The position numbers and the translations under genes are program-made. A stretch of 64,000 bases of DNA from Alphaproteobacteria bacterium (lineage in GTDB: Bacteria > Pseudomonadota > Alphaproteobacteria > Rhizobiales > GCA-2746425): positions 620,001 to 684,000 of the forward strand of contig JANSWZ010000001.1 of assembly GCA_024743215.1 (NCBI GenBank), given 5' to 3'. This document shows positions 51,092-64,000 of this stretch, one piece after another; the first letter of the stretch is position 1; every line of letters starts with the position of its first letter. The notes below the pieces were generated by a model, which ran no database searches, was not told where the DNA came from, and saw only the letters and a program-made list of their open reading frames with translations.

Positions 51092-52915
51092 ATGACGGAA
51101 TCACCCAAAGACCCCGGTCGGGACAACCATCTTCTAGAGTATATCGTGCAGAATCCGGAAGCATTTGCCAACAATCTGGCACGTGCTGCTGAGGAGGCTG
51201 GTCGTGCTGTGGCTGCTTTCCTGAAACCACGAGAGGAAGGTCGCCGGGATGGCGAAGATGTTAACGACGAGATTTCCGAAATCGTGACAACTCTGTCGAA
51301 GGTCGGCGAGTATTGGATTTCGGATCCGGAACGGGCGGTGCAGGCTCAGACAGCCCTGTGGACAAATTACATGAGTTTGTGGAGCTCTTCGCTTCAACGC
51401 ATGCAGGGACAGGAAGCTCAACCCGCCATAAAACCCACTCAAGGCGACAAGCGTTTTTCTGCTGAAGACTGGGAGCAGAACCAGTTTTTTGATTTTCTGA
51501 AGCAATTCTATCTGATCACGTCGAAGTGGGCGCAGCAGATGGTGGAAGAAGCTGATGATCTGGATGAACACACCAAGAGTAAAGCCGACTTTTATGTTCA
51601 GCAATTGTCAAATGCTGTGTCGCCGTCCAACTTCCTGTTGACCAATCCGGAATTGCTGAAAGAGACGGTCCAGAGCGACGGGGAAAATCTGGTGCGCGGC
51701 ATGCGGATGCTGGCAGAGGATATGATTGCCGGTGATGGCGAATTGAAAATGCGCCAGTCTGATCCGAAGAAATTCAAGGTCGGCGAGAACATGGCCGTGA
51801 CGCCGGGCAAAGTCATCTTTCAGAATGATATCTGCCAGTTGCTCCAATATACGCCAATAACAACCAAGGTGTTGAAGCGACCATTGTTGATCGTTCCGCC
51901 ATGGATCAACAAATTCTATGTGCTGGACCTCAATCCGGAGAAGTCCTTTATCCGCTGGGCCGTCGAGCGCGGTCATACCGTGTTTGTGATTTCATGGATC
52001 AACCCCGATGAGCGCCAGTCGGGAAAAAGTTTTGAACACTACATGAAAGAAGGCATTTTAGAGGCCTTGAATCAGGTTGAGACCGCGACTGGCGAAAAGA
52101 AGGTGAATGCCATTGGCTATTGCGTTGGCGGCACATTGCTGTCTGTCACACTGGCCTATATGGCCGCAAAAAAAGACACCCGCATTGCGTCGGCCACCCT
52201 GTTTACCACACAGGTGGACTTCACCCATGCGGGCGAGTTGAAAATATTCGTCGATGAAGAACAGATCAGCGCGCTTGAGAAACACATGGAAAAGCGCGGC
52301 TATCTGGAAGGCTCAAAAATGTCGACAGCCTTCAACATGCTGCGCTCCAATGATCTGGTCTGGCCATATTTCGTGAACAACTACATGCGTGGAAAAGACC
52401 CCTTCCCGTTTGATCTTTTGTACTGGAATTCAGACAGTACGCGCATGCCGGCTGCGAACCATTCATTCTATATGCGGAACTGTTATCTTGAAAATAATCT
52501 GTCCCGTGGAAAAATGGTCGTAGGCGATGAGACCCTTGACCTGTCGAAGGTCAAAATCCCGATCTACAATCTTGCAACCAAGGAAGATCACATCGCGCCT
52601 GCCCTGTCCGTGTTCAAAGGGTCGTCGTGTTTTGGTGGTCCGGTGCAATTTGTGATGGCGGGCTCAGGTCACATTGCCGGTGTGGTCAATCCACCTCATA
52701 GAAACAAGTATCAGCATTGGACCGGCGCTGAACCAAAAGGTGACTTTGACGAATGGGTCTCAAAGGCTGAAGAACATCCCGGATCCTGGTGGCCACATTG
52801 GCACGCCTGGATTGAAGAACTGAACGACACCCAAGTCTCTGCGCGACAGCCCGGCGAGAATGGCATTGAAATCCTCGAGGACGCACCGGGCTCCTACGTA
52901 AAAACCAAGGCTTGA
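51092..52915 (+). CDS. phaC: Class I polyhydroxyalkanoate synthase
   Basis: A 607-residue PhaC that polymerises 3-hydroxyacyl-CoA at the surface of storage granules. The lipase-box-like GYCVGGTLL gives the catalytic cysteine (Cys344). The catalytic aspartate lies in YNLATKEDHIAP and the histidine in GSGHIAGVVNPP. Length and motifs fit class I enzymes for short-chain monomers. ATG at 51092 is preferred; another ATG 15 codons earlier is open. It is divergent from the aminotransferase gene and four bases upstream of rnd. Confidence 0.94.
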   Translation: MTESPKDPGRDNHLLEYIVQNPEAFANNLARAAEEAGRAVAAFLKPREEGRRDGEDVNDEISEIVTTLSKVGEYWISDPERAVQAQTALWTNYMSLWSSSLQRMQGQEAQPAIKPTQGDKRFSAEDWEQNQFFDFLKQFYLITSKWAQQMVEEADDLDEHTKSKADFYVQQLSNAVSPSNFLLTNPELLKETVQSDGENLVRGMRMLAEDMIAGDGELKMRQSDPKKFKVGENMAVTPGKVIFQNDICQLLQYTPITTKVLKRPLLIVPPWINKFYVLDLNPEKSFIRWAVERGHTVFVISWINPDERQSGKSFEHYMKEGILEALNQVETATGEKKVNAIGYCVGGTLLSVTLAYMAAKKDTRIASATLFTTQVDFTHAGELKIFVDEEQISALEKHMEKRGYLEGSKMSTAFNMLRSNDLVWPYFVNNYMRGKDPFPFDLLYWNSDSTRMPAANHSFYMRNCYLENNLSRGKMVVGDETLDLSKVKIPIYNLATKEDHIAPALSVFKGSSCFGGPVQFVMAGSGHIAGVVNPPHRNKYQHWTGAEPKGDFDEWVSKAEEHPGSWWPHWHAWIEELNDTQVSARQPGENGIEILEDAPGSYVKTKA

Positions 52916-52918
52916 AAC

Positions 52919-54088
52919 TTGTCTGATATTATTACCGTAACTGATACGAAGACGCTCGCTGATATGTGCGCGCGCCTGGCTCAACATTCTTTCGTGACCG
53001 TTGACACAGAATTTCTACGTGAAAGCACGTATTGGCCTATCCTGTGCCTCATTCAGGTTGCCAGCGACGATGAAGCGGCTCTGATTGACCCGATGGCAGA
53101 CGGCCTGGATCTTGCGCCCTTCTTTGAACTCATGGCTGATCGCAATGTGGTGAAAGTCTTTCATTCTGCGCGTCAGGATCTTGAGATAATTCTCAAGCTT
53201 GGGGATTTAATTCCCGCTCCACTGTTTGACACCCAAATTGCAGCGATGGTTTGTGGATTTGGCGACAGCATCAGTTACGATCATCTGGTGCAAAAAATCT
53301 GCAATGTTCAGATCGACAAGTCCTCCCGTTTCACCGATTGGAGCCAGCGACCGCTTACTGCCAAGCAGCAGACTTACGCTCTGGCCGATGTGACCCATCT
53401 GCGCGACATCTACAAATCACTGGCCGCCAAACTTGAGCAGCAAAGCCGCACGGATTGGCTGACTGAGGAAATGGCCATACTGGAGAGTCGCGGAACCTAT
53501 ATTGTGGAGCCGCAAGACGCCTGGAAACGGCTGAAGATGCGGGCGCGCAAACCAATTGAACTGGCCGTTACCAAAGAACTGGCCGCCTGGCGCGAAACAG
53601 AAGCAAAATCTCGCAACCAACCGCGTGGCCGCATCATCAAGGATGATGCGATCTACGAATTGGCATCGCAGCAACCGGAAAATGTACAGGCACTGGCACG
53701 CATGCGTGCTTTGCCCAAAGGTTTTGACCGCTCAAGATTTGCAGATTCTGTGATTGCAGCCGTCAAGCGGGCGAAATCCATTCCGAAAGAAGACTTGCCA
53801 ACCGTGCCGCGCCCTCCCCGTCGACCTGAAGGCGCAAGTGCCGTGGTTGAATTGCTGAAAGTCTTGCTGAAACTTGTCTGTGAGCAACATGGTGTCGCTT
53901 CAAAAATCATTGCCAATGTGGATGATCTGGAAAAAATCGCAGACAGTGACACAGCGGACGTGGCCGCACTGAAAGGCTGGCGGCGTGAGTTGTTCGGTGA
54001 AGCTGCGTTACAGGTGAAAGAAGGAAAACTTGGCTTTGCGCTGTCTCAGCGCAAGAAGGTCATTCTGGTGCCAATCGATACTGAATAA
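52919..54088 (+). CDS. rnd: Ribonuclease D
   Basis: A 389-residue RNase D, a 3'-5' exoribonuclease that matures tRNA 3' ends. The DEDD exonuclease domain has VDTEF (Asp29, Glu31), FHSARQDLEI, and motif III YALADVTHL (about 154-162). An HRDC nucleic-acid-binding domain follows (about 210-290), with a second helical region to the end. TTG start at 52919, after AAGG in the end of phaC. Residues 163 to the end are duplicated, at about 90 percent protein identity by eye, in the chimeric gene at 57248. Confidence 0.94.
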   Translation: MSDIITVTDTKTLADMCARLAQHSFVTVDTEFLRESTYWPILCLIQVASDDEAALIDPMADGLDLAPFFELMADRNVVKVFHSARQDLEIILKLGDLIPAPLFDTQIAAMVCGFGDSISYDHLVQKICNVQIDKSSRFTDWSQRPLTAKQQTYALADVTHLRDIYKSLAAKLEQQSRTDWLTEEMAILESRGTYIVEPQDAWKRLKMRARKPIELAVTKELAAWRETEAKSRNQPRGRIIKDDAIYELASQQPENVQALARMRALPKGFDRSRFADSVIAAVKRAKSIPKEDLPTVPRPPRRPEGASAVVELLKVLLKLVCEQHGVASKIIANVDDLEKIADSDTADVAALKGWRRELFGEAALQVKEGKLGFALSQRKKVILVPIDTE

Positions 54089-54091
54089 ACA

Positions 54092-54538
54092 CTATTTATT
54101 GCGTGCCACTTCAAAGGCCATTTTCAGTTCTTCAATGGCTTTAAGTGTGTTTGACAGATCTTCATTTGTGCGGCCAGCGAACAAATCCTTGAGAGCCAGG
54201 CCAAGATTGCTGTAACGCTTCTCGGCCTCTTCCCGGGTTTCATCTGTCAGACTGATGACCCAGCTCCGTCTGTCCGTCGGAGAGTGTGTTCGGTTTATGT
54301 GTCCACCCTTTTCCAGTCGGTCCAGCATTGCAGTAACAGAAGCCGTGGTTATACCCAGCTTGACTGCGAAGTCTTTTGGGTGAAGTTCCGTTTCCTTTAG
54401 CGCGTCGATTGCCCGCAATGCGGTTCGATCAATCCCTATGCTGTCTGCAATATACTCATCAAAGCGACCGACTTCTGCATAAAGACCCCGAATCGAGTCG
54501 ACCAAATCCTGCGGACTCGGCTCTGAACCAATTGACAC
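54092..54538 (-). CDS. MarR-family transcriptional regulator
   Basis: A 148-residue winged-helix regulator. The DNA-binding part is LGITTASVTAMLDRLEKGGH (about 65-84), with the wing RTHSPTDRRSWVISLT. It is convergent with rnd and divergent from the first autotransporter. A palindromic site lies just upstream, so it probably represses itself and perhaps the autotransporter. This gene is absent at the equivalent place in the second duplication copy. Confidence 0.9.
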   Translation of the reverse strand: MSIGSEPSPQDLVDSIRGLYAEVGRFDEYIADSIGIDRTALRAIDALKETELHPKDFAVKLGITTASVTAMLDRLEKGGHINRTHSPTDRRSWVISLTDETREEAEKRYSNLGLALKDLFAGRTNEDLSNTLKAIEELKMAFEVARNK

Positions 54539-54555
54539 TGTGATGCCTCCAGTTT

Positions 54556-54579
54556 ATCTAGTTTTTGAACTAACTAGAT
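54556..54579. promoter_or_regulatory. MarR operator candidate in the marR/autotransporter gap
   Basis: Two nested inverted repeats: ATCTAG (54556-54561) with CTAGAT (54574-54579), and TAGTT-TTTG-AACTA (54559-54572). They lie 17-40 bases before the marR start codon, where the regulator would block its own promoter. A related sequence stands at 58290-58312 in the second copy. Confidence 0.5.
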
Positions 54580-54692
54580 AGTCTAGGTATATTCTGCAAC
54601 CCCAGTTTCACAGAACCCGTGTGATCACAATAGTGATTAAGCCTCGGAATTCAATAGATAATCTGCGGGCAATCTGGTGGCAGGAGAGCTGA

Positions 54693-56921
54693 TTGGAGTG
54701 TTTGAATTTGACGACAGAATCCGTATATTCCGATATCACTGTTACATCAGTGAAAGTGGCTGAACCGCTTGTGGGCCGGGCCGGCAAAAAGCGGCTCCTG
54801 ATTTTGAGCGTTGCTGCAATAGCACTGTTCGCAAGCTACTCCAGCACTTACGCAGCAGACTTTCTTGTCGACACGCCAACCGTCATCACCAATGGGTCTG
54901 CAGCCAATATACTGGATGGCAATGACAGCCTGATCATTACAGGCGATGGTGCTATTACGACCGTACCAAACGACACCTATGGTGTTGAAGCAACCGGCTC
55001 ATTCAACAGCATCACGAATGGCGGTTCCATAGTCACCAGTGGCGAAAGTAGTAACGGCATTCAAGCAGTCGATCAAACGATCATCAGCAATACTGGAACA
55101 ATCGAAACGCATGGATTGTTTAGTGAAGGCATAGAGGCAAATGAATACACTACAATCATGAATAGCGGCATCATAATTACAAGGGGTGACGACGCGGCCG
55201 CAATTTATCTGCGTGATCACGGCATGGTAATCAACTCCGGGTCGATTATCACCTACGGCAGCGGTGGAGCTGCTGGTATCGATGCCGGCGACGACCACAT
55301 AATTATAAATAGCGGCCTGATCGAAACACGCGGCGATGATGGCGTGAATGTTGGAGCCGACAGCCATGTCACGAATACCGGTGTTATCAGAATATATGAG
55401 GATGATGGAAGTGCAATTCAACTTGGTGATAACAGCCATGGTTTCAACAGTGGCGACATTGTAACTTTCAGTAGGAGTGCAAGAGGCATTCGATCCTTTT
55501 CAGGCACCATTTTCACAAATAGCGGATCAATTCGAACCTATGGTGACTTCGCCCGTGCCATTGATGGACGCGATAGCAACACTGTCATAAACAGTGGATT
55601 GCTGTTTACCGCAGGTGCCAATGCTGCTGGGATCGATGTTACTGGCGGCAGCACTGTGACAAATTCGGGCAAGATTGTTGCCGCTCAATACAACTCCATT
55701 ACGTTCATAAATGGCGGCAGCACATTAAACCTTCTGGCGCCGTCTTTTATCGGCGGAGAAATTGACCTTGGTGCGGGTGTTGAAATCAACATTACCACCG
55801 GCCCGTCCCATTCCAACCTTTGGGACTTCAGCACTGGCACTATAATTGGTGGAGACCCCACCATAGGTGACACGGTTCCCTGGTTCTACAACCGTTCAAC
55901 CAAGCAGTTTGCAACACTTGATCCCTCGGTTCTTGCAGCAAAAACCGAAACACTCATCGACCGAACAGCGCTGATCTCGGCGGTGATGCAACGGCGACTG
56001 GAGCACAGCCAACTGAACATGGAGAACAGGGGCCGTCATAACCTGGAACAGAGTGCCGGACCGTTCGACAAGTCTGGTGCATGGCTGCAGGTGATGGCCA
56101 GCAAAAGCAAATATGACGGCGACGCGGTTACTTTGGACCGCGATATTGAGTTGGGAGGGTTTGCGGTCGGGTATGATGTCAGTCATGACAATGACACACG
56201 CTTTGGTATGATGGCAGGCTATATTGACGGCCGCTCAGAAGCCGCCAGTCATTGGGCAAATTCTTTTGAAAGCCGCAGTTCCGGCCTGTTTGCTGCTGGT
56301 TATGGACGCAAGAACTTTGGCCGAATATTTGTTGATCTGGGCCTGAGTGCGGGCATAGGCACGGACAATGAAACCAAGCGCTTTGTGAATGACAATCTGA
56401 CCGCTTTGGGTGAAAGCCATGCAACAGGCGATCTTGGTGTCAGTTTCTGGATCAGCCCCGAGATCGCTGTAGGCACCGAAATCGGCACCCTGTCCAACTG
56501 GACATTCGCACCCTCAGCAAAGCTGCGTTATGCCGCTGAATGGTTTGGTGGTTACACGGAAACCGGCCCGTCTGCCGATGCTAATGCGACTGTCGATGAC
56601 CGCATGGTCGCTTTTAGTGAAGCACGGCTGGAACTTGCCGCCTCTCGTTACGTGTCGTTTGGCAATTCTGTCACTGCACTGATTACCGCCAGAGGGGGCG
56701 CACTTGGACGCAGTTCCTTTGGCGAGGATGCCACCATAACCCTGTGGGGTGTCACACAAGATGTTTCTGATTTTTACGAAGATAATTTTGCGATCTTTGC
56801 CGGGCTGGACGCCAGCTTCTCTGTGAGCGACAGGCTCTATCTCGATTTGTCCACCTCAACCACCCAAGGCAATGACATAACCAACTGGCAGGGAGCAGGC
56901 ACTTTAGGCGTCCGTTTTTGA
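54693..56921 (+). CDS. Autotransporter (type Va) surface protein, copy 1
   Basis: A 742-residue classical autotransporter. A long signal region (about 1-54, hydrophobic core ILSVAAIALFASYSS, cleavage near YAA before DFLVD) precedes a passenger of about 400 residues. The passenger is built of short degenerate repeats (NSGxIxTxGDxAxxI) that should form a beta-helix. The C-terminal barrel (about 459-742) begins DKSGAWLQVMASKSK and ends in a phenylalanine (LGVRF). No protease triad is seen. TTG start at 54693 with GGAG upstream. The barrel and passenger are clearly related to the gene at 58549. Confidence 0.85.
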   Translation: MECLNLTTESVYSDITVTSVKVAEPLVGRAGKKRLLILSVAAIALFASYSSTYAADFLVDTPTVITNGSAANILDGNDSLIITGDGAITTVPNDTYGVEATGSFNSITNGGSIVTSGESSNGIQAVDQTIISNTGTIETHGLFSEGIEANEYTTIMNSGIIITRGDDAAAIYLRDHGMVINSGSIITYGSGGAAGIDAGDDHIIINSGLIETRGDDGVNVGADSHVTNTGVIRIYEDDGSAIQLGDNSHGFNSGDIVTFSRSARGIRSFSGTIFTNSGSIRTYGDFARAIDGRDSNTVINSGLLFTAGANAAGIDVTGGSTVTNSGKIVAAQYNSITFINGGSTLNLLAPSFIGGEIDLGAGVEINITTGPSHSNLWDFSTGTIIGGDPTIGDTVPWFYNRSTKQFATLDPSVLAAKTETLIDRTALISAVMQRRLEHSQLNMENRGRHNLEQSAGPFDKSGAWLQVMASKSKYDGDAVTLDRDIELGGFAVGYDVSHDNDTRFGMMAGYIDGRSEAASHWANSFESRSSGLFAAGYGRKNFGRIFVDLGLSAGIGTDNETKRFVNDNLTALGESHATGDLGVSFWISPEIAVGTEIGTLSNWTFAPSAKLRYAAEWFGGYTETGPSADANATVDDRMVAFSEARLELAASRYVSFGNSVTALITARGGALGRSSFGEDATITLWGVTQDVSDFYEDNFAIFAGLDASFSVSDRLYLDLSTSTTQGNDITNWQGAGTLGVRF

Positions 56922-57247
56922 AACCGAGATTTGTTACCAATGCCTGATTTCAACTCCTCAAGATTATGAACTAAGATCGACCCTTTGCCTCAATTCAACA
57001 CGCTATTGAAGAGATGAAAATGCTGAGGATCCCAATGAAGCAATTGGGCCTCCTGTTGCATACCTGACCATATTTTTATTTGTGCTGACTGTGTTTGTCA
57101 GCCATGGGCACCTGCAAAATGAAACGATTTTTCCCTCACAAGAACCTTCAATAAGGGCATCACAGTAACGCTTGCTCTTTTAAGAGTCTCCATTAATATC
57201 GATTTTCTATATCAATTAATAAATAAATCGGTATTTTGGATGATCAA
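56922..57247. other. 326-base gap before the chimeric gene
   Basis: No gene is supported. It holds the palindrome CTCTTTTAAGAG (about 57175-57186) and the conserved inverted repeat at 57195-57235. No strong terminator follows the autotransporter. Confidence 0.4.
57195..57235 (+). promoter_or_regulatory. Inverted repeat upstream of MBL-type gene, copy 1
   Basis: AATATCGATTT (57195-57205) and AAATCGGTATT (57225-57235) are complementary apart from one G-T position. The element ends 12 bases before the start codon. The same element, with a similar loop, precedes the intact MBL gene at 63831, so it belongs to that gene's control region, either as an operator or as an RNA hairpin near the ribosome site. 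Confidence 0.45.
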
Positions 57248-58267
57248 ATGAAACATACGACTCTGGCAACGGCGCTGATTGCGAGCTGGGCATTGTTCGG
57301 GATTTCTGGAACAGATGCGCAGGCAGCAGCCTGCATGAAAGTAACGTTGACGGGCACACAGGGTGGTCCTCCTGTCTTTAATGGACAGGCCGGATCAGGA
57401 ACTCTGGTGCAATTCGGTAATGAGGAAAACAAATGTGCTGGGGTCAATCTTCAATTTGACACCGGTCGTGGAACGACCCAGCAGCTCTCCAAACTCAAAC
57501 TGCCAGTTGGCAAGCTCAATGCGATTTTTCTGACCCATATGCATTCCGATCATACAGAAGGTCTTGCGGATATGATGCAGTTGCGCGCGATCTACAAGTC
57601 TTTGAAAGCCAGACTGGAGCAGCAAAACCGCAGCGAATGGCTGTCAGAAGAAATGGCTATATTAGAGAGTCGTGGCACCTATATTGTTGAGCCAGAAGAT
57701 GCATGGAAACGGCTCAAGATGCGGGCGAGAAAACCAATTGAACTGGCCATTACAAAAGAGCTTGCGGCCTGGCGCGAGGCAGAAGCAAAGTCTCGTAACC
57801 AGCCACGGGGCCGCATTATCAAGGATGATGCAATTTATGAACTGGCCTCGCAACAGCCGGAAAATGTTCAGGCATTGGGGCGCATGCGAGCACTGCCAAA
57901 AGGTTTTGACCGTTCAAAATTTGCTGATGCGATTATTGCAGCCGTGAAGCGGGCAAAATCGATTCCAAAACATCAATTGCCTGTTGTGCCACGCCCTCCC
58001 AGACGACCAGAAGGTGCGAGTGCGGTGGTAGAGCTATTGAAGGTGCTGTTAAAGCTGGTGTGTGAGCAAAATGGCGTTGCCTCTAAGATTATTGCCAATG
58101 TGGACGATCTGGAAAAGATCGCTGATAGCGATACGGCGGATGTGGCAGCCTTAAAAGGGTGGCGACGGGAGTTGTTTGGGGAAGCTGCGCTACAGGTGAA
58201 GGCCGGACAACTTGGATTTGCGCTGTCGAATCGAAAGAAAGTGGTTCTGGTGCCGATTGATGCTTGA
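57248..58267 (+). CDS. Chimeric gene: secreted MBL N-terminus fused to RNase D C-terminus
   Basis: A 339-residue in-frame fusion. Residues 1-113 are a secreted metallo-beta-lactamase-fold protein. A signal peptide ends near residue 26 (GTDAQA), TGTQGGPPVFNGQAG follows, and the metal motif HMHSDH is at 97-102. Residues 114-339 match residues 163-389 of the RNase D at 52919, including the HRDC domain, with about 23 substitutions by eye. The exonuclease domain and most of the MBL domain are missing. The join falls at the shared bases TGCGCG (57582-57587). As translated, an RNA-binding domain would be exported, so function is doubtful. ATG at 57248; the frame is fully open. Confidence 0.85.
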   Translation: MKHTTLATALIASWALFGISGTDAQAAACMKVTLTGTQGGPPVFNGQAGSGTLVQFGNEENKCAGVNLQFDTGRGTTQQLSKLKLPVGKLNAIFLTHMHSDHTEGLADMMQLRAIYKSLKARLEQQNRSEWLSEEMAILESRGTYIVEPEDAWKRLKMRARKPIELAITKELAAWREAEAKSRNQPRGRIIKDDAIYELASQQPENVQALGRMRALPKGFDRSKFADAIIAAVKRAKSIPKHQLPVVPRPPRRPEGASAVVELLKVLLKLVCEQNGVASKIIANVDDLEKIADSDTADVAALKGWRRELFGEAALQVKAGQLGFALSNRKKVVLVPIDA

Positions 58268-58289
58268 TCTTCCTAATTGATTCAGATTC

Positions 58290-58312
58290 GAACTAATTGG
58301 CATAACCTAAGT
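58290..58312. promoter_or_regulatory. Decayed copy of the marR/autotransporter operator region
   Basis: GAACTAATTGGCATAACC and the following TAAGT align with GAACTAACTAGATAGTC and TAGGT in the operator at 54567-54588. One gap is needed, and the mismatches are all transitions. It lies 23 bases after the chimera stop, in the 281-base gap before the second autotransporter. This suggests that marR was deleted and part of its operator left. Confidence 0.3.
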
Positions 58313-58548
58313 TCTATGAGTTTTGTCGTTCGAATCGGTCTGGACAGGATTGATTGCGCATTGCTCGACTTTTTTGCTTTCAAGACGACGTCGGGCCATT
58401 TGACAAGACTTCATTGCCTCGTTATTTCTTAACTGACCGCCTGAGACACCCCATATCTCGACATTACTGCCCTATAACATGTAGTTGAGGGAGCCACTAT
58501 TTTGCGCATCTATCGATTGGACTTGCGCCTCTTCGCGAAAGGTTCAAT

Positions 58549-60855
58549 ATGTCTGACACCATTGCCTGCTCGGCCAATATCTCCGACCAAATCTCGATGA
58601 GGAAATGTAGAATTCAAGGCTTGATGCTGGGTGTGGCGGTCTCAGGAATAATTGCTGGCTGTGGCGGCGGCTATGCGGCGGATTTTGTTGTTGACACACC
58701 GACAATTATTCAAAACGGGTCTGCGACCAATACTTTGGATGGCAATGACAGTCTCACCATTACCAAAAGCGGCGAAGTTGCCGTCACTGGTGCCCATGCT
58801 GTTGATGCTTCGGGGAATTCCAATGAAGTAACAAATGCTGGTCTCGTCGAGGTAAATGGTGACTTCTTCAATGGTATTAATCTGCTAGCTGACTTCAATA
58901 CTATCACAAATACCAGCATGGGCACAATTACAACCAACGGTGAAGAAAGTGTTGGAATTGAAGGGGAAAGCTACACGACGGTCATGAATGATGGTCAAAT
59001 TGCCGCCACCGGCTTGGATGCAAGAGGCATTGATCTTCGTGACCATAATCAGGTCACAAACAATGGCTCAATTTCGACTGGTGTCGGTGGTGAGGATGCA
59101 ATCCGCGTATTAGAATTTAATACCGTGATCAACTCCGGAACGATCACAACCATGGGGGATGACGCCAATGCAATTGAAGCGAATTCCGACAATGTTATTA
59201 TAAACAATGGCGTTCTCACAACCTATGGAATCAGCAGCTATGGCATAAACTCTACCGATGATGTCTTCCTGACCAATAATGGGTCAATTATGGTAATGGA
59301 TGGCACCGGCATGCGGGGAACAAAAGTTGCGACCATTGTAAACAATGGCGCTATCTTCATCGAAGATGGAGAAGGCATAAATGCTGAGGATGACGCAGTT
59401 GTCATAAACACCGGAACGATTGAGATCGTTGCAGGTGATGCTTCCAATAATGGTATTGACATCACGAGTGGTGTCGTTGTGAACAGCGGCTCCATTATAA
59501 CTCGAGGCGTAGATACCGACGCAATTGAGTCTGACCGCAGTGCCATTGTTTCCAATTCGGGGAAAGTTGTATCCGCTGGTGCAAATTCGTTTCATTTTAG
59601 CGATGAATCCATTTTTACGGGAGAAAACAAACTCAATGTTTTGGCACCCTCGTTTATTGGCGGCACAATTGACCTTGGAACTGCATTCACGACCGATACA
59701 GCGGTGAACATTAAAACTGGAGCATCTCATTCGATATTGTGGGATTTCAGCACGGGGAACATGTTGGGTGCAGACCCCACCATTGGTGGTACCGTGCCGT
59801 GGTTTTACGACAGTGCAACCAAGCAGATTGCGACATTTGACCCATCGGTTCTGGCTGCATCTGTTGAAACGTTGACTGATCGAACCGCATTGATATCGGC
59901 CACTATCCAGCGTCGACTGGCGGCCGCCGATATGGTGATTAATGGCATTCAACGCGGCAAGCCTGATGACTACGATTCGGAAATCAACGTCGGTAATTTC
60001 GATAAATCCGGTGCTTGGGTGCAGGTGCTCGGAAGCAAAAGCAATAATGGTGGCAATGCCTCATTGCTTGATCGGGACATTGTTCTTGGTGGTTTGGCGG
60101 TTGGCTATGATGGACGAATTAGCGACAACAAACGCTTTGGTGTCATGGCGGGCTATATTGATGGTAGCTCAGAAGCCTCCAGCCGCTGGTCAAAATCATT
60201 TGAAAGTGACAGTTCCGGCTTCTTTGCAGCAGGTTATGCGCGCAAGAGCATTGGCTCTTTGTTTGTTGACCTGGGTTTAAGCGCGGGCTTTGGCACGGAC
60301 AATGAGACCAAGCGTTTTGTGAATGATAATCTTGCCGCACTTGGAGAAAGCTATGCGATGGGCGATCCTGGAACAAGTTTCTGGCTCAGCCCCGAGATAG
60401 CGATTGGAACCCAAATCGGCACCATGTCCAATTGGACCGTCGCGCCTTCGGCAAAACTTCGTTATGCCGCTGAATGGTTTGGTAGTTATACTGAGACAGC
60501 TCCGTCTGCTGCGGCGAACGCCAAAGTCGATGACCGGATGGTTGCCATTGGAGAAGCCCGACTGGAACTCGCCGCCTCGCGCGATGTCATGATCAGTAAT
60601 TCGATGCGGGCATCAGTTACAGTACGCGGTGGTGCGCTAGGCCGGGCATCTCTTGGCGAGGACGCTACCATTACATTGCTTGGCGTTACTCGGGATGTTT
60701 CTGATTTTTACGAAGACAGCTTTGCAATCTTTGCCGGACTGGACGCCAGAGTTACTGTGAGCGACCGGCTGAGTCTCGATCTGTCGACCTCCGCTACCCA
60801 TGGCAATGACATGACCAATTTTCAGGGTGCAGCGGCTCTTGGTGTGGCGTTCTAA
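58549..60855 (+). CDS. Autotransporter (type Va) surface protein, copy 2
   Basis: A 768-residue paralogue of the protein at 54693. The signal region contains SGIIAGC (Cys38), a fitting lipobox. Ordinary cleavage after YAA before DFVVD, as in copy 1, is the alternative. The passenger (about 48-420) consists of degenerate beta-helix repeats such as INSGTITTMGDDANAIEANS. The C-terminal barrel (about 485-768) starts DKSGAWVQVLGSKSN and ends LGVAF. ATG at 58549 with AAAGG upstream. Barrel sequence is nearly superimposable on copy 1, while the passenger has diverged more, as expected for an exposed region. Confidence 0.85.
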   Translation: MSDTIACSANISDQISMRKCRIQGLMLGVAVSGIIAGCGGGYAADFVVDTPTIIQNGSATNTLDGNDSLTITKSGEVAVTGAHAVDASGNSNEVTNAGLVEVNGDFFNGINLLADFNTITNTSMGTITTNGEESVGIEGESYTTVMNDGQIAATGLDARGIDLRDHNQVTNNGSISTGVGGEDAIRVLEFNTVINSGTITTMGDDANAIEANSDNVIINNGVLTTYGISSYGINSTDDVFLTNNGSIMVMDGTGMRGTKVATIVNNGAIFIEDGEGINAEDDAVVINTGTIEIVAGDASNNGIDITSGVVVNSGSIITRGVDTDAIESDRSAIVSNSGKVVSAGANSFHFSDESIFTGENKLNVLAPSFIGGTIDLGTAFTTDTAVNIKTGASHSILWDFSTGNMLGADPTIGGTVPWFYDSATKQIATFDPSVLAASVETLTDRTALISATIQRRLAAADMVINGIQRGKPDDYDSEINVGNFDKSGAWVQVLGSKSNNGGNASLLDRDIVLGGLAVGYDGRISDNKRFGVMAGYIDGSSEASSRWSKSFESDSSGFFAAGYARKSIGSLFVDLGLSAGFGTDNETKRFVNDNLAALGESYAMGDPGTSFWLSPEIAIGTQIGTMSNWTVAPSAKLRYAAEWFGSYTETAPSAAANAKVDDRMVAIGEARLELAASRDVMISNSMRASVTVRGGALGRASLGEDATITLLGVTRDVSDFYEDSFAIFAGLDARVTVSDRLSLDLSTSATHGNDMTNFQGAAALGVAF

Positions 60856-61473
60856 AGCCGGGCACTGGTCCATAAACACCTGTTTCAATGCCTACCATGC
60901 AACTTGTGATGGATTCATTGAAACGGGCATAAGGGCTCGTATTGTTGATTGGGTACTACAGAGACAACACTGGTGCGACCCGATGGTGAGACGTTAAGTT
61001 GTCACGGTTTTGATTGAAGCCTTTATCGACGGACATATCTCAGCATTTTGTCGAAGGCCTGTTTTCAGTCTTTTCATCTGATAATGAACGATCAGGCGGG
61101 TTTGCATGGCCGAAGCTGGGTTTTCGTCATCAGCGCATGGCTTCTCAGCCAAACCGCATCCATGATTCCATGCTCATGAGTTTGTTGCTTTTAAGTGCTG
61201 CTGACGCTTATTTTTAACGTCTGGATCTGCTGAATCACCACTCACCCAGGTTGAACCGAATTTGCTCCAGAACGTCGCGGCGGTCACTCCAGAACCAACC
61301 CATTTCGGACAAAATTGGCCGCGTATCAGCCAAAGCCCAGACCGAGTGTTTATCCCGGCATGCTCATCTGTATCACTGTCGACGTGTAATCAGTCAGATC
61401 ATGGGTGGTGTCGTTTCTCACCGTGATTCTGATCGAGACTTTCGTGAGCAATCAATCGGGGCGCAGAATTTCA
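60856..61473. other. 618-base gap between autotransporter 2 and the inverse-autotransporter-like gene
   Basis: GTTTCAAT (60882-60889) and ATTGAAAC (60917-60924) form a perfect inverted repeat shortly after the stop codon, without a T-run. Part of this flank (TGATGGATTCATTGA) recurs after the autotransporter remnant near 63617. A 67-codon frame at 61014-61217 has no recognisable features. The remainder presumably holds the promoter of the next gene. Confidence 0.4.
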
Positions 61474-63267
61474 ATGACAGTCAGATGCAGATATCAGCAG
61501 GGACACAAGTCGAGGACCCTAGTGCTGGCAACGACTGCTTTTTTCGCCCTTTCCTGCATGGCTCATGCAGGTGAAATTGAGCGGAAGTGGAACTCGTGGA
61601 TTGAATTGGGCGGCTATGGCGGGTCGGATGGTTCAGCCCGCGGTGAAACTGTTATTTTCCACCCATTTCTTCAAACAGATACGACCTTACTTTTTGCCGA
61701 CATCCGCGGGAAATTCTTTTCCGAAGACGCACAGGAAGGCAATTTGGCATTCGGATATCGCAGAATGCTGAATTCCGGTTGGAATGCAGGAATCTGGTCT
61801 GGTCTCGATATTCGCAGAACTGAAAATGACAATGTGTTCTATCAGGCTGCTTTGGGTCTGGAATTTTTGTCTGATCGTTATGATGTTCGGGTCAATGGCT
61901 ACGTGCCTTTGAATGCTGATCCTCAGGTTGCATCATCATCAGCCACGGTGGCGTTGTCCGGCAGTTCTATTTTCATGAGTGGCGGCCAGGAAATGCCACT
62001 TTACGGGGTTGATGCGGAAGTCGGGATGAAGCTTGCAGGATTTCAGATTGATCCTGAATCGAACCGGCTTCACGAGTTACGGCTATATGGCGGTGGCTTC
62101 TGGTTTTCGTCTGATGATGCGGCGGAAGACATTGCGGGGCCTGCTGCCCGTCTGGAATATCGTATTGAAAATATCTCCTCCATTCTCCCCGGCAGTCGTC
62201 TGACCGTTGAAAGTGAATTCTCTTACGATGACGTTCGCGAGGAACGCTGGGAAGTCGGCGCACGCTTCAGAATTCCCTTCGGTGGATCAGACGGGGAACT
62301 CAGCCCTCTGACCGCGCAGGAACGGCGCATGGCAGACGGACTTGAGCGAGATACGGACATTGTCATTGGTTCCAGCGGCAAAGAGATGGTCGCTGACGCC
62401 ACTACCGATGTGGTGTTTGAGAGCGTTGTACAAACAGATGCAACAAGCAACCTTCAAACGACAGCGAACAATGCCGGTTCCGATGTTCTCATCATCGTTG
62501 ATGGCAGCGCAGGTGATTACAGCTCTGGAGCTGATGTGCAGGAAGACCAGACCTGGCAGGGCGGTGCCTCAAGCATCATGGTTCGAGGCCTGGAATCCGG
62601 GGTGACCGCTTCCTTCACTGCACCAGGTAGCAGGCCGACTGTAAACAACAGTACTTTTTCAACCATAGAGCTTGAGGACAATTCTCATATTGCCGGCTTC
62701 AACATCAATGCGGTCAATGCAGCCACAAACTGGACTGCACTGACTGTGGGTAACAATGGCTCTAACCGTGCAGCTACGAACAACACCATTTCTACGCTAG
62801 CGGATTCTGCTACTGGTATTTCTCTTGGGAATGGAAATTCTGACATCTATATCTCGGGCAACTCGGTGACACTAGCCGGAGACGCGATCGGGATTTCCAT
62901 GTCGGGAACCAATACAGGCATTGTTATCGACAACAATCGTATAAATGCACCAAACGGCAATGGAATTTTTATCGGCATTTTTGATAATGATGTGCGGATC
63001 ACAAACAATGTTGTTTCCAACAGCGGCGACGCTTTCGGACTGCGGATTGATGGTGATGGCACACGAGCTCATATTGCCAATAACCGGTTTGAAGGCGCAT
63101 TTGGGACAGATGTCATAGTGCTGAATGAAACCAACGGTCTTGGCAATATCCTGTCCGGTTCCGGGAACATTTTTGATGGTACGCTCGGTGGTGTCTTCTG
63201 TAATGTTTCCGGCACCCATACGGGTTCAATTGAGTTTGAAGGCAGTGTTGGCAATTGCCCACCTTAA
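61474..63267 (+). CDS. Inverse-autotransporter-like protein with beta-helix passenger
   Basis: About 597 residues. A signal peptide (about 1-32, ending MAHA before GEIER) is followed by an N-terminal beta-domain (about 40-270) that reads like the inverse autotransporter barrel of intimin/invasin: LLFADIRGKFFSEDAQEGN, LAFGYRRMLNSGWNAGIWSG, LGLEFLSDRYDVRVNGYVPL. A linker leads to a C-terminal passenger (about 310-597) of right-handed beta-helix repeats (NNTISTLADSATGISLG, NNRINAPNGNGIFIG). Immunoglobulin-like or LysM modules are absent. Two cysteines near the end (VFCNVSG, VGNCPP) may pair. ATG at 61474 fits the signal peptide; a start 23 codons earlier is open. Confidence 0.72.
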   Translation: MTVRCRYQQGHKSRTLVLATTAFFALSCMAHAGEIERKWNSWIELGGYGGSDGSARGETVIFHPFLQTDTTLLFADIRGKFFSEDAQEGNLAFGYRRMLNSGWNAGIWSGLDIRRTENDNVFYQAALGLEFLSDRYDVRVNGYVPLNADPQVASSSATVALSGSSIFMSGGQEMPLYGVDAEVGMKLAGFQIDPESNRLHELRLYGGGFWFSSDDAAEDIAGPAARLEYRIENISSILPGSRLTVESEFSYDDVREERWEVGARFRIPFGGSDGELSPLTAQERRMADGLERDTDIVIGSSGKEMVADATTDVVFESVVQTDATSNLQTTANNAGSDVLIIVDGSAGDYSSGADVQEDQTWQGGASSIMVRGLESGVTASFTAPGSRPTVNNSTFSTIELEDNSHIAGFNINAVNAATNWTALTVGNNGSNRAATNNTISTLADSATGISLGNGNSDIYISGNSVTLAGDAIGISMSGTNTGIVIDNNRINAPNGNGIFIGIFDNDVRITNNVVSNSGDAFGLRIDGDGTRAHIANNRFEGAFGTDVIVLNETNGLGNILSGSGNIFDGTLGGVFCNVSGTHTGSIEFEGSVGNCPP

Positions 63268-63294
63268 GCAGCAAGTGATGTCTTAGTGGGCGCA

Positions 63295-63562
63295 CTTTGG
63301 AATTCGCTTCACATGGTGTCGCCAAGGCTGAGAACGAACTGTGCCAGAAATATATGCCACTGTTGATGACAGCATAATTGCCGTTTGGGGTGGCGCAGTT
63401 TGGCCGCGCGTCACTTGCAGAAAACACCAAAATGACTTTGCCGAACTGGATACCGGTTTCTCCGTTGGAGATAGGCTCGCCCCAGATCTGTCCACCTCAA
63501 CAACCCATGGCAATGACATGACCAATGTTCAGGGTGCAGTGGCACCGGGTGTTTTGTTCTAA
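63295..63562 (+). pseudogene. Remnant of an autotransporter C-terminus
   Basis: Degenerate sequence whose last part (SVGDRLAPDLSTSTTHGNDM then TNVQGAVAPGVLF) matches the final barrel strands of the autotransporters at 54693 and 58549. Earlier pieces (ATVDDSIIAV, GGAVWPR) correspond to barrel segments with deletions and lost frame. No start, signal or passenger remains. It is evidently a third, decayed autotransporter copy, placed just before the MBL gene as copy 1 is. Confidence 0.75.
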
Positions 63563-63777
63563 GGTCGAGCATAGGTTCGTTCAACACCTCGATTATGCTG
63601 TTCAACAGGCGTGTTCTGATGGATTCAGTGATATTGGCATTGGTCGCCCGGGTGTCAGGGCATTTGGCGTCTGTTTGCCCGGGGCTACTATCTGACTAAA
63701 GAATGCGAAGTGTGTAGTCTGATTGGTCCATAATGGCAGTCACGATAGTGTCACTTGCCGTTTTGTCTGGTTCCGTT

Positions 63778-63818
63778 AATCTCGATTTTATTACGAAAAG
63801 CCGAAATAAATCGGTATT
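63778..63818 (+). promoter_or_regulatory. Inverted repeat upstream of MBL gene, copy 2
   Basis: AATCTCGATTT (63778-63788) and AAATCGGTATT (63808-63818), the counterpart of the element at 57195-57235, again ending 12 bases before the start codon. GGGAGGA follows and serves as ribosome site. Confidence 0.45.
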
Positions 63819-63830
63819 AGGGAGGATCAG

Positions 63831-64000
63831 ATGAAGCATTTTGCACTTCTATCAACACTTTTTGCAGGCTGTGCGCTGTTCGGCATGACAGGAACGCAGG
63901 CGCAGGCAGCGGGCTGTATGAAGGTAACCTTGACTGGAACACAAGGTGGCCCTCCCGTTTTCAATGGACAGGCGGGCGCCGGAACCCTGGTTCAATTCGG
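63831..64000 (+). CDS. Secreted MBL-fold protein, 5' part, runs off the window
   Basis: The first 56 codons of a gene whose N-terminus parallels the chimera at 57248: signal peptide with GMTGTQAQA near residue 26, then AGCMKVTLTGTQGGPPVFNG and GTLVQFG. In the chimera the same segment leads to HMHSDH, so this is expected to be the intact exported metallo-beta-lactamase-fold hydrolase. The window ends before the metal motif. ATG at 63831 after GGGAGGATCAG. Confidence 0.8.
   Translation, partial: MKHFALLSTLFAGCALFGMTGTQAQAAGCMKVTLTGTQGGPPVFNGQAGAGTLVQF

Follow-up and report, generated by a model that had tools for sequence, protein, structure and literature searches.

An in-frame fusion between an exported MBL-fold hydrolase gene and an RNase D gene at a probable tandem-duplication joint in an alphaproteobacterium

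Fresh tandem duplications have near-identical copies, and the fusions that form at bacterial tandem-duplication joints are mostly short-lived by-products. Tandem duplication through 9-bp microhomology has been described in bacteria (PMC11111574). A fusion of an MBL-fold protein with RNase D was not described in any of the literature titles and abstract openings covered. Here, we analyzed such a fusion in a 64,000-nt stretch of an alphaproteobacterial contig (JANSWZ010000001.1), referred to as the window, whose genome is denoted G000.

The fusion gene forms a single frame without stop at positions 57248–58267 (339 codons), as the preliminary description had stated. Its division into MBL residues 1–113 and RNase D residues 114–339 was likewise confirmed by the matches to both parents, and so were the signal-peptide-like N-terminus and the HRDC-containing C-terminal tail. 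In a search of the whole genome, residues 1–118 matched the genome's own MBL gene at 80% amino acid identity and residues 102–338 its own RNase D at 88%; the third match was one weak MBL-like place (37%) containing one stop. The 5′ half (57248–57586, plus strand) comprises the signal-peptide-like start and the first 113 of 353 MBL residues. It keeps the HMHSDH sequence of the HxHxDH motif and, judged by hydropathy only, the hydrophobic core and AQA-A end of the signal peptide, while the C-terminal part with the other metal ligands and the full fold is absent. According to Pfam, sequence comparison, and fold model, the 3′ half (57587–58267, plus strand) is the C-terminal region of RNase D with HRDC and without the exonuclease domain. 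Pfam matches on the fusion were a partial Lactamase_B_2 (residues 70–126) and HRDC (PF00570, residues 166–232), with no match to the DEDD exonuclease domain DNA_pol_A_exo1. Judged by sequence, a product, if made, would have no complete catalytic site of either enzyme. As the assembly is a draft of 19 contigs, an assembly or sequencing artefact was considered. The fusion is, however, only about 80% (RNase D) and 75% (MBL start) identical to its parents at the nucleotide level, and the longest exact runs it has in common with them are 18 and 15 nt, so that accidental gluing of parental reads or contigs is very unlikely. The joint also lies inside a 1.29-Mb contig, and the flanking duplication is consistent with it. 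An artefact is thus very unlikely, and the fusion gene is real.

The order of genes around the fusion is that of a duplication joint. On the left stands RNase D (52919–54088, plus strand; 389 aa), the parent of the 3′ half, which matches DNA_pol_A_exo1 and HRDC in Pfam and scores above the cut-off of NCBIfam TIGR01388 (rnd). It is directly followed by a gene for a MarR-type regulator (54092–54538, minus strand), which also occurs in G003, the closest among the four other genomes of the genus; the MarR-type gene converges on RNase D at a distance of 3 bp. Next come AT1 (54693–56921, plus strand), an autotransporter according to its Pfam match (Autotransporter), the fusion, and a second autotransporter, AT2 (58549–60855, plus strand), in which AT1 is repeated. 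An inverse-autotransporter-like ORF (61405–63267, plus strand) separates AT2 from the 3′-end remnant of an autotransporter (63436–63576, plus strand), and the row ends with the intact exported MBL gene, the parent of the 5′ half, which starts at 63831 on the plus strand and extends beyond the window end at 64000. With RNase D as A and the MBL gene as C, this arrangement corresponds to A-B-C(5′)/A(3′)-B′-C with A and C intact. Within AT1 and AT2 (54693–60855), the beta-domains are better conserved and the passengers highly diverged; contig C4 of this genome carries another relative of these tandem autotransporters. Rfam gave no match at E ≤ 1 over 52800–64000.

In G003, the locus is unduplicated (RNase D, MarR, autotransporter, MBL, and downstream genes). 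The flanks of the two genomes are about 85% identical, from 52000 to the AT1 start and from the remnant onward (63436–65898). The inner block, which holds AT1, the fusion, AT2, the inverse-autotransporter-like ORF, and the remnant, reaches 65–78% where aligned. Its left boundary could not be fixed: beyond about 54960, the identity between the AT1 passenger and G003 drops to about 50%, although the gapped BLAST match extends to 55315. Among ORFs of at least 90 aa between RNase D and the downstream genes, G002, G004, and G001 (there compared outside about 0.9 kb of this interval) revealed no match to MarR, autotransporter, or MBL. For the inverse-autotransporter-like ORF, no match at E ≤ 0.001 was found in G002–G004, and G001 gave a weak one (29%). 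Not every gene of the unit is present twice, as no match to a second MarR copy was found after the fusion, and the stop context behind the fusion resembles that of G002, which has no MarR there, rather than that of G000 or G003. On the simplest reading, the missing MarR copy would reflect either insertion of MarR next to the native RNase D at a later time or a block from a MarR-less lineage.

By this order of genes, the joint would belong to an extended, diverged tandem duplication in which the autotransporters are also contained, and the fusion very probably originated as its joint. In the mechanism that we propose on the basis of the observed order and homologies, a segment from the 3′ part of RNase D through the autotransporter to the 5′ part of the MBL gene would have been duplicated in tandem. 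A short patch of partial similarity would have connected its end (inside MBL) with its beginning (inside RNase D), and the locus would be left with an in-frame fusion in the middle and intact parents on either side. Such a patch is found at 57560–57586 (plus strand). Over these 27 nt, which end at the joint, the parents agree at 17 positions in G003 and 16 in G000, similarities that occurred at frequencies of 7 in 100,000 and 3 in 10,000, respectively, among the offset pairs scanned, and the patch encodes xLADxxxLR in both parents. The preliminary description had placed the joint at a TGCGCG common to both parents. This motif is missing from the MBL parent, which reads TTACGCTGG in G000 and TTGCGCTGG in G003; its occurrences at 53400 and 57582 belong to RNase D and to the fusion itself. 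The exact run common to the parents spans CGC to TGCGC within the looser 27-nt similarity. The first codon past the joint, Ala114 (GCG), is unlike either parent (Asp, GAC/GAT; Trp, TGG), and Asp occupies this position in at least 90% of aligned RNase D sequences. In the fold model, a single helix (residues 104–125) passes through the joint.

The fused RNase D tail is well diverged from its parent and strongly constrained. Compared with the RNase D of this genome, it has a YN00 dS of 0.88, against 0.32 between the RNase D tails of G000 and G003, and three methods gave a dN/dS of 0.04–0.07 for the former comparison. Codon models of this half (six sequences, 223 codons, four topologies) favored the fusion as sister to the pair of G000 and G003, with the next topology 6.9 lnL units worse. 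For the RNase D half, the duplicated block thus split from the native copies after the G002 split and before that of G000 and G003; G003 would then have lost the block by recombination between autotransporter copies, or the present genome would have taken it from an unsampled sister lineage. Omega was 0.021 on the fusion branch and 0.050 elsewhere (2 × ΔlnL = 4.1), and fixing it at 1 on the fusion branch cost 36 lnL units. The value of 0.02 covers the entire branch, along which the point of fusion is not datable. None of 62 near-invariant RNase D columns (97% conservation) is changed in the fusion, and five RNase D sequences of the genus likewise change none. These columns were taken from 80 distinct sequences, i.e., segments from 77 of the 78 loci L017–L094 plus the fusion and the five genus sequences, minus three identical ones (L015 and L016 were omitted as copies of G002 and G001); as short peptide patterns from the fusion had served to retrieve these loci, the choice of columns is somewhat biased towards it. 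A neutral portion above about 3% of the branch would be expected to leave at least one of the 62 columns changed (P ≤ 0.05 for no change), and the observation therefore calls for either selection or a recent joint. In random simulations, a fully neutral branch accumulated a mean of 12 stops and kept the frame open in 0 of 400 runs, whereas with a neutral tenth the frame was still open in 6%.

Of the 42 columns without variation among six homologues, the MBL half changes only one, and a three-gene test yielded an omega of 0.07, with omega = 1 worse by 33 lnL units. With two outgroups (86 codons; G215 and G354 left out), the rejection of omega = 1 was marginal (lnL −918.3 versus −916.3), probably due to a poorly placed root. 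Lengths of the fusion branch were similar between the halves (2.4–3.0 for RNase D, 2.5–2.9 for MBL), and both halves are thus comparably diverged from their parents, as expected for a novel joint formed by duplication. Third-position changes on the fusion branch (20 from G/C to A/T, 11 in reverse) were too few for dating, and composition dating by GC3 (0.484 versus 0.543 and 0.496 versus 0.593) comprised too few changes for a decision.

Constraint in both halves does not by itself require a function of the fusion. The block might have been imported recently from an unsampled sister species, in which case the fusion would have arisen during the transfer or shortly before it, as a passive by-product without function; the low dN/dS would then be inherited from the donor's intact RNase D and MBL genes. 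Such an import would explain why both halves retain the constraint of intact parents and why G003 is without the block, and it would supply the recent joint that is the alternative to selection. On the other hand, the donor is hypothetical and would already have to carry, or make, the same tandem structure. In the clock test of the fusion branch, the evidence was weak under one omega (lnL −2651.9 with clock versus −2650.5 without; 2 × ΔlnL = 2.9); under two omegas, the fusion branch was longer than the sister path (−2651.5 versus −2648.4; 2 × ΔlnL = 6.2), which is suggestive of a paralogue more than of a donor orthologue. We regard the import as a serious possibility, though one that falls short of even chances.

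The leader also bears on the import. The 73-nt leaders of the intact MBL genes in G000 and G003 are identical at 72 positions; the leader of the fusion (57175–57247, plus strand) has kept only 48 of 73 in alignment with that of the genome's own MBL gene. Pairing energy of the Shine-Dalgarno sequence drops from −11.8 kcal/mol in the intact MBL gene to −4.2 in the fusion, close to RNase D itself (−4.0), while all four intact MBL genes compared range from −10.3 to −12.2 kcal/mol. The ribosome region, which had been described as intact, is thus not so. The divergence of leader and Shine-Dalgarno sequence counts against the recent import, and the diverged leader fits an older fusion slightly better; the unbroken constraint fits an old, selected fusion and a recent import alike. 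Because of the diverged leader and the weakened Shine-Dalgarno sequence, translation from 57248 would be weak at best. The signal for a conserved hairpin in the fusion leader is weak (z = −2.0; 9 of 200 shuffles equally good). As a separate observation, the hairpin of the intact MBL leader (63753–63843) covers the Shine-Dalgarno sequence and the start codon (−29.1 kcal/mol, z = −3.8, none of 200 shuffles as good), and this leader is conserved although the MBL starts of the two species have a dS near 0.4–0.5. It had no match in Rfam and possibly acts as a regulatory RNA, for example a thermometer.

Alternatively, the useful product might be a cytosolic HRDC-only protein made from an in-frame ATG pair at 57572, with the MBL half as a dead leader. 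The Shine-Dalgarno energy there is −4.6 kcal/mol, near that at 57248. The fold model, whose alignment held only six MBL rows, points the same way: 229 of 339 residues reach a pLDDT of at least 70, the 102 residues below 50 are exactly residues 1–102, and confident modelling mostly extends over residues 103–339. However, the MBL half is also conserved, as described above, and the same ATG context is simply MBL coding sequence, which makes an internal start improbable. The best PDB match of the model was E. coli RNase D (1yt3; E = 6.7e-08, TM-score 0.49 by query length), which was also matched by sequence. If made, the predicted product would at most be a binding protein with HRDC-type helices behind an export signal.

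To trace the fusion elsewhere, related genomes were searched as the preliminary description had suggested, and it was seen in none among the matches listed. In the best 80 of 183 relatives, the loci with up to 8 kb of flank revealed no match to fusion residues 1–108 (E ≤ 1e-3); this match search replaced an earlier, narrow regular-expression check, which had found both exonuclease motifs in 55 of the 80. A match was obtained in 289 of 297 genomes of the order, and among the matches listed only the fusion itself begins before residue 96. No match in the four other genomes of the genus spans both halves. Plasmids contributed 31 matching records, two of which cover at least 80% of the query. The best among the plasmid matches listed, from Shinella, starts at residue 28 and was taken for an RNase D extended into the exonuclease domain, because L037, a similar type of match, reads as RNase D. 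The MBL gene is sporadic, being found in six of the 297 order genomes (E 1e-20; only a fragment in G033) and in three of 398 phylum genomes (E 1e-40), with the present genome included in both counts and G215 in both searches. This distribution agrees with horizontal transfer of the gene.

Taken as one statement, an origin at a duplication joint with the coding sequence kept under purifying selection is the reading we moderately favor; its odds overlap with those of the import, as the two have the duplication origin in common and are not exclusive. According to this preferred reading, purifying selection would have kept the coding sequence for a low-level protein with a signal peptide, a fragment of MBL from which the C-terminal two thirds are absent, and an HRDC region of the RNase D type that is intact but has no nuclease domain attached. 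An exported protein may be made: the coding constraint argues for it, and the weakened Shine-Dalgarno sequence and diverged leader argue against strong expression. Selection on the product of the fusion itself is possible, with the balance tilting against it. Retention of the MBL half is surprising given the loss of most of that protein, and a tail with every near-invariant residue is also expected of a recently fused, formerly intact RNase D. Rather doubtful is the most specific proposal, in which a signal–HRDC fusion has been selected since before the split from the nearest sampled relative and yields a protein that is exported or held in the membrane and binds nucleic acids but has no catalytic domain.

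If true, a duplication joint would here have given rise to a new bacterial gene. With constraint at the level of RNase D, diverged copies, and an intact frame, it would offer a test case for the origin and persistence of new domain combinations, and for whether an HRDC domain is able to function apart from its nuclease. Like described fusions at novel joints of tandem duplications, it has intact parents on both sides, a hybrid gene at the joint, and short similarity at the breakpoint; unlike fresh duplications, its copies have diverged to the degree given above, and the fusion ORF has been kept. In its C-terminal HRDC region, it resembles Ribonuclease D (TIGR01388), from which it differs by the absence of the whole exonuclease domain, with a score of 191 against a family cut-off of 299. 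With an exported MBL-fold hydrolase, which in sub-cut-off matches only is related to RNase Z and arylsulfatase-like proteins, it shares the signal-peptide-like start, the N-terminal third, and HMHSDH, but not the remaining two thirds.
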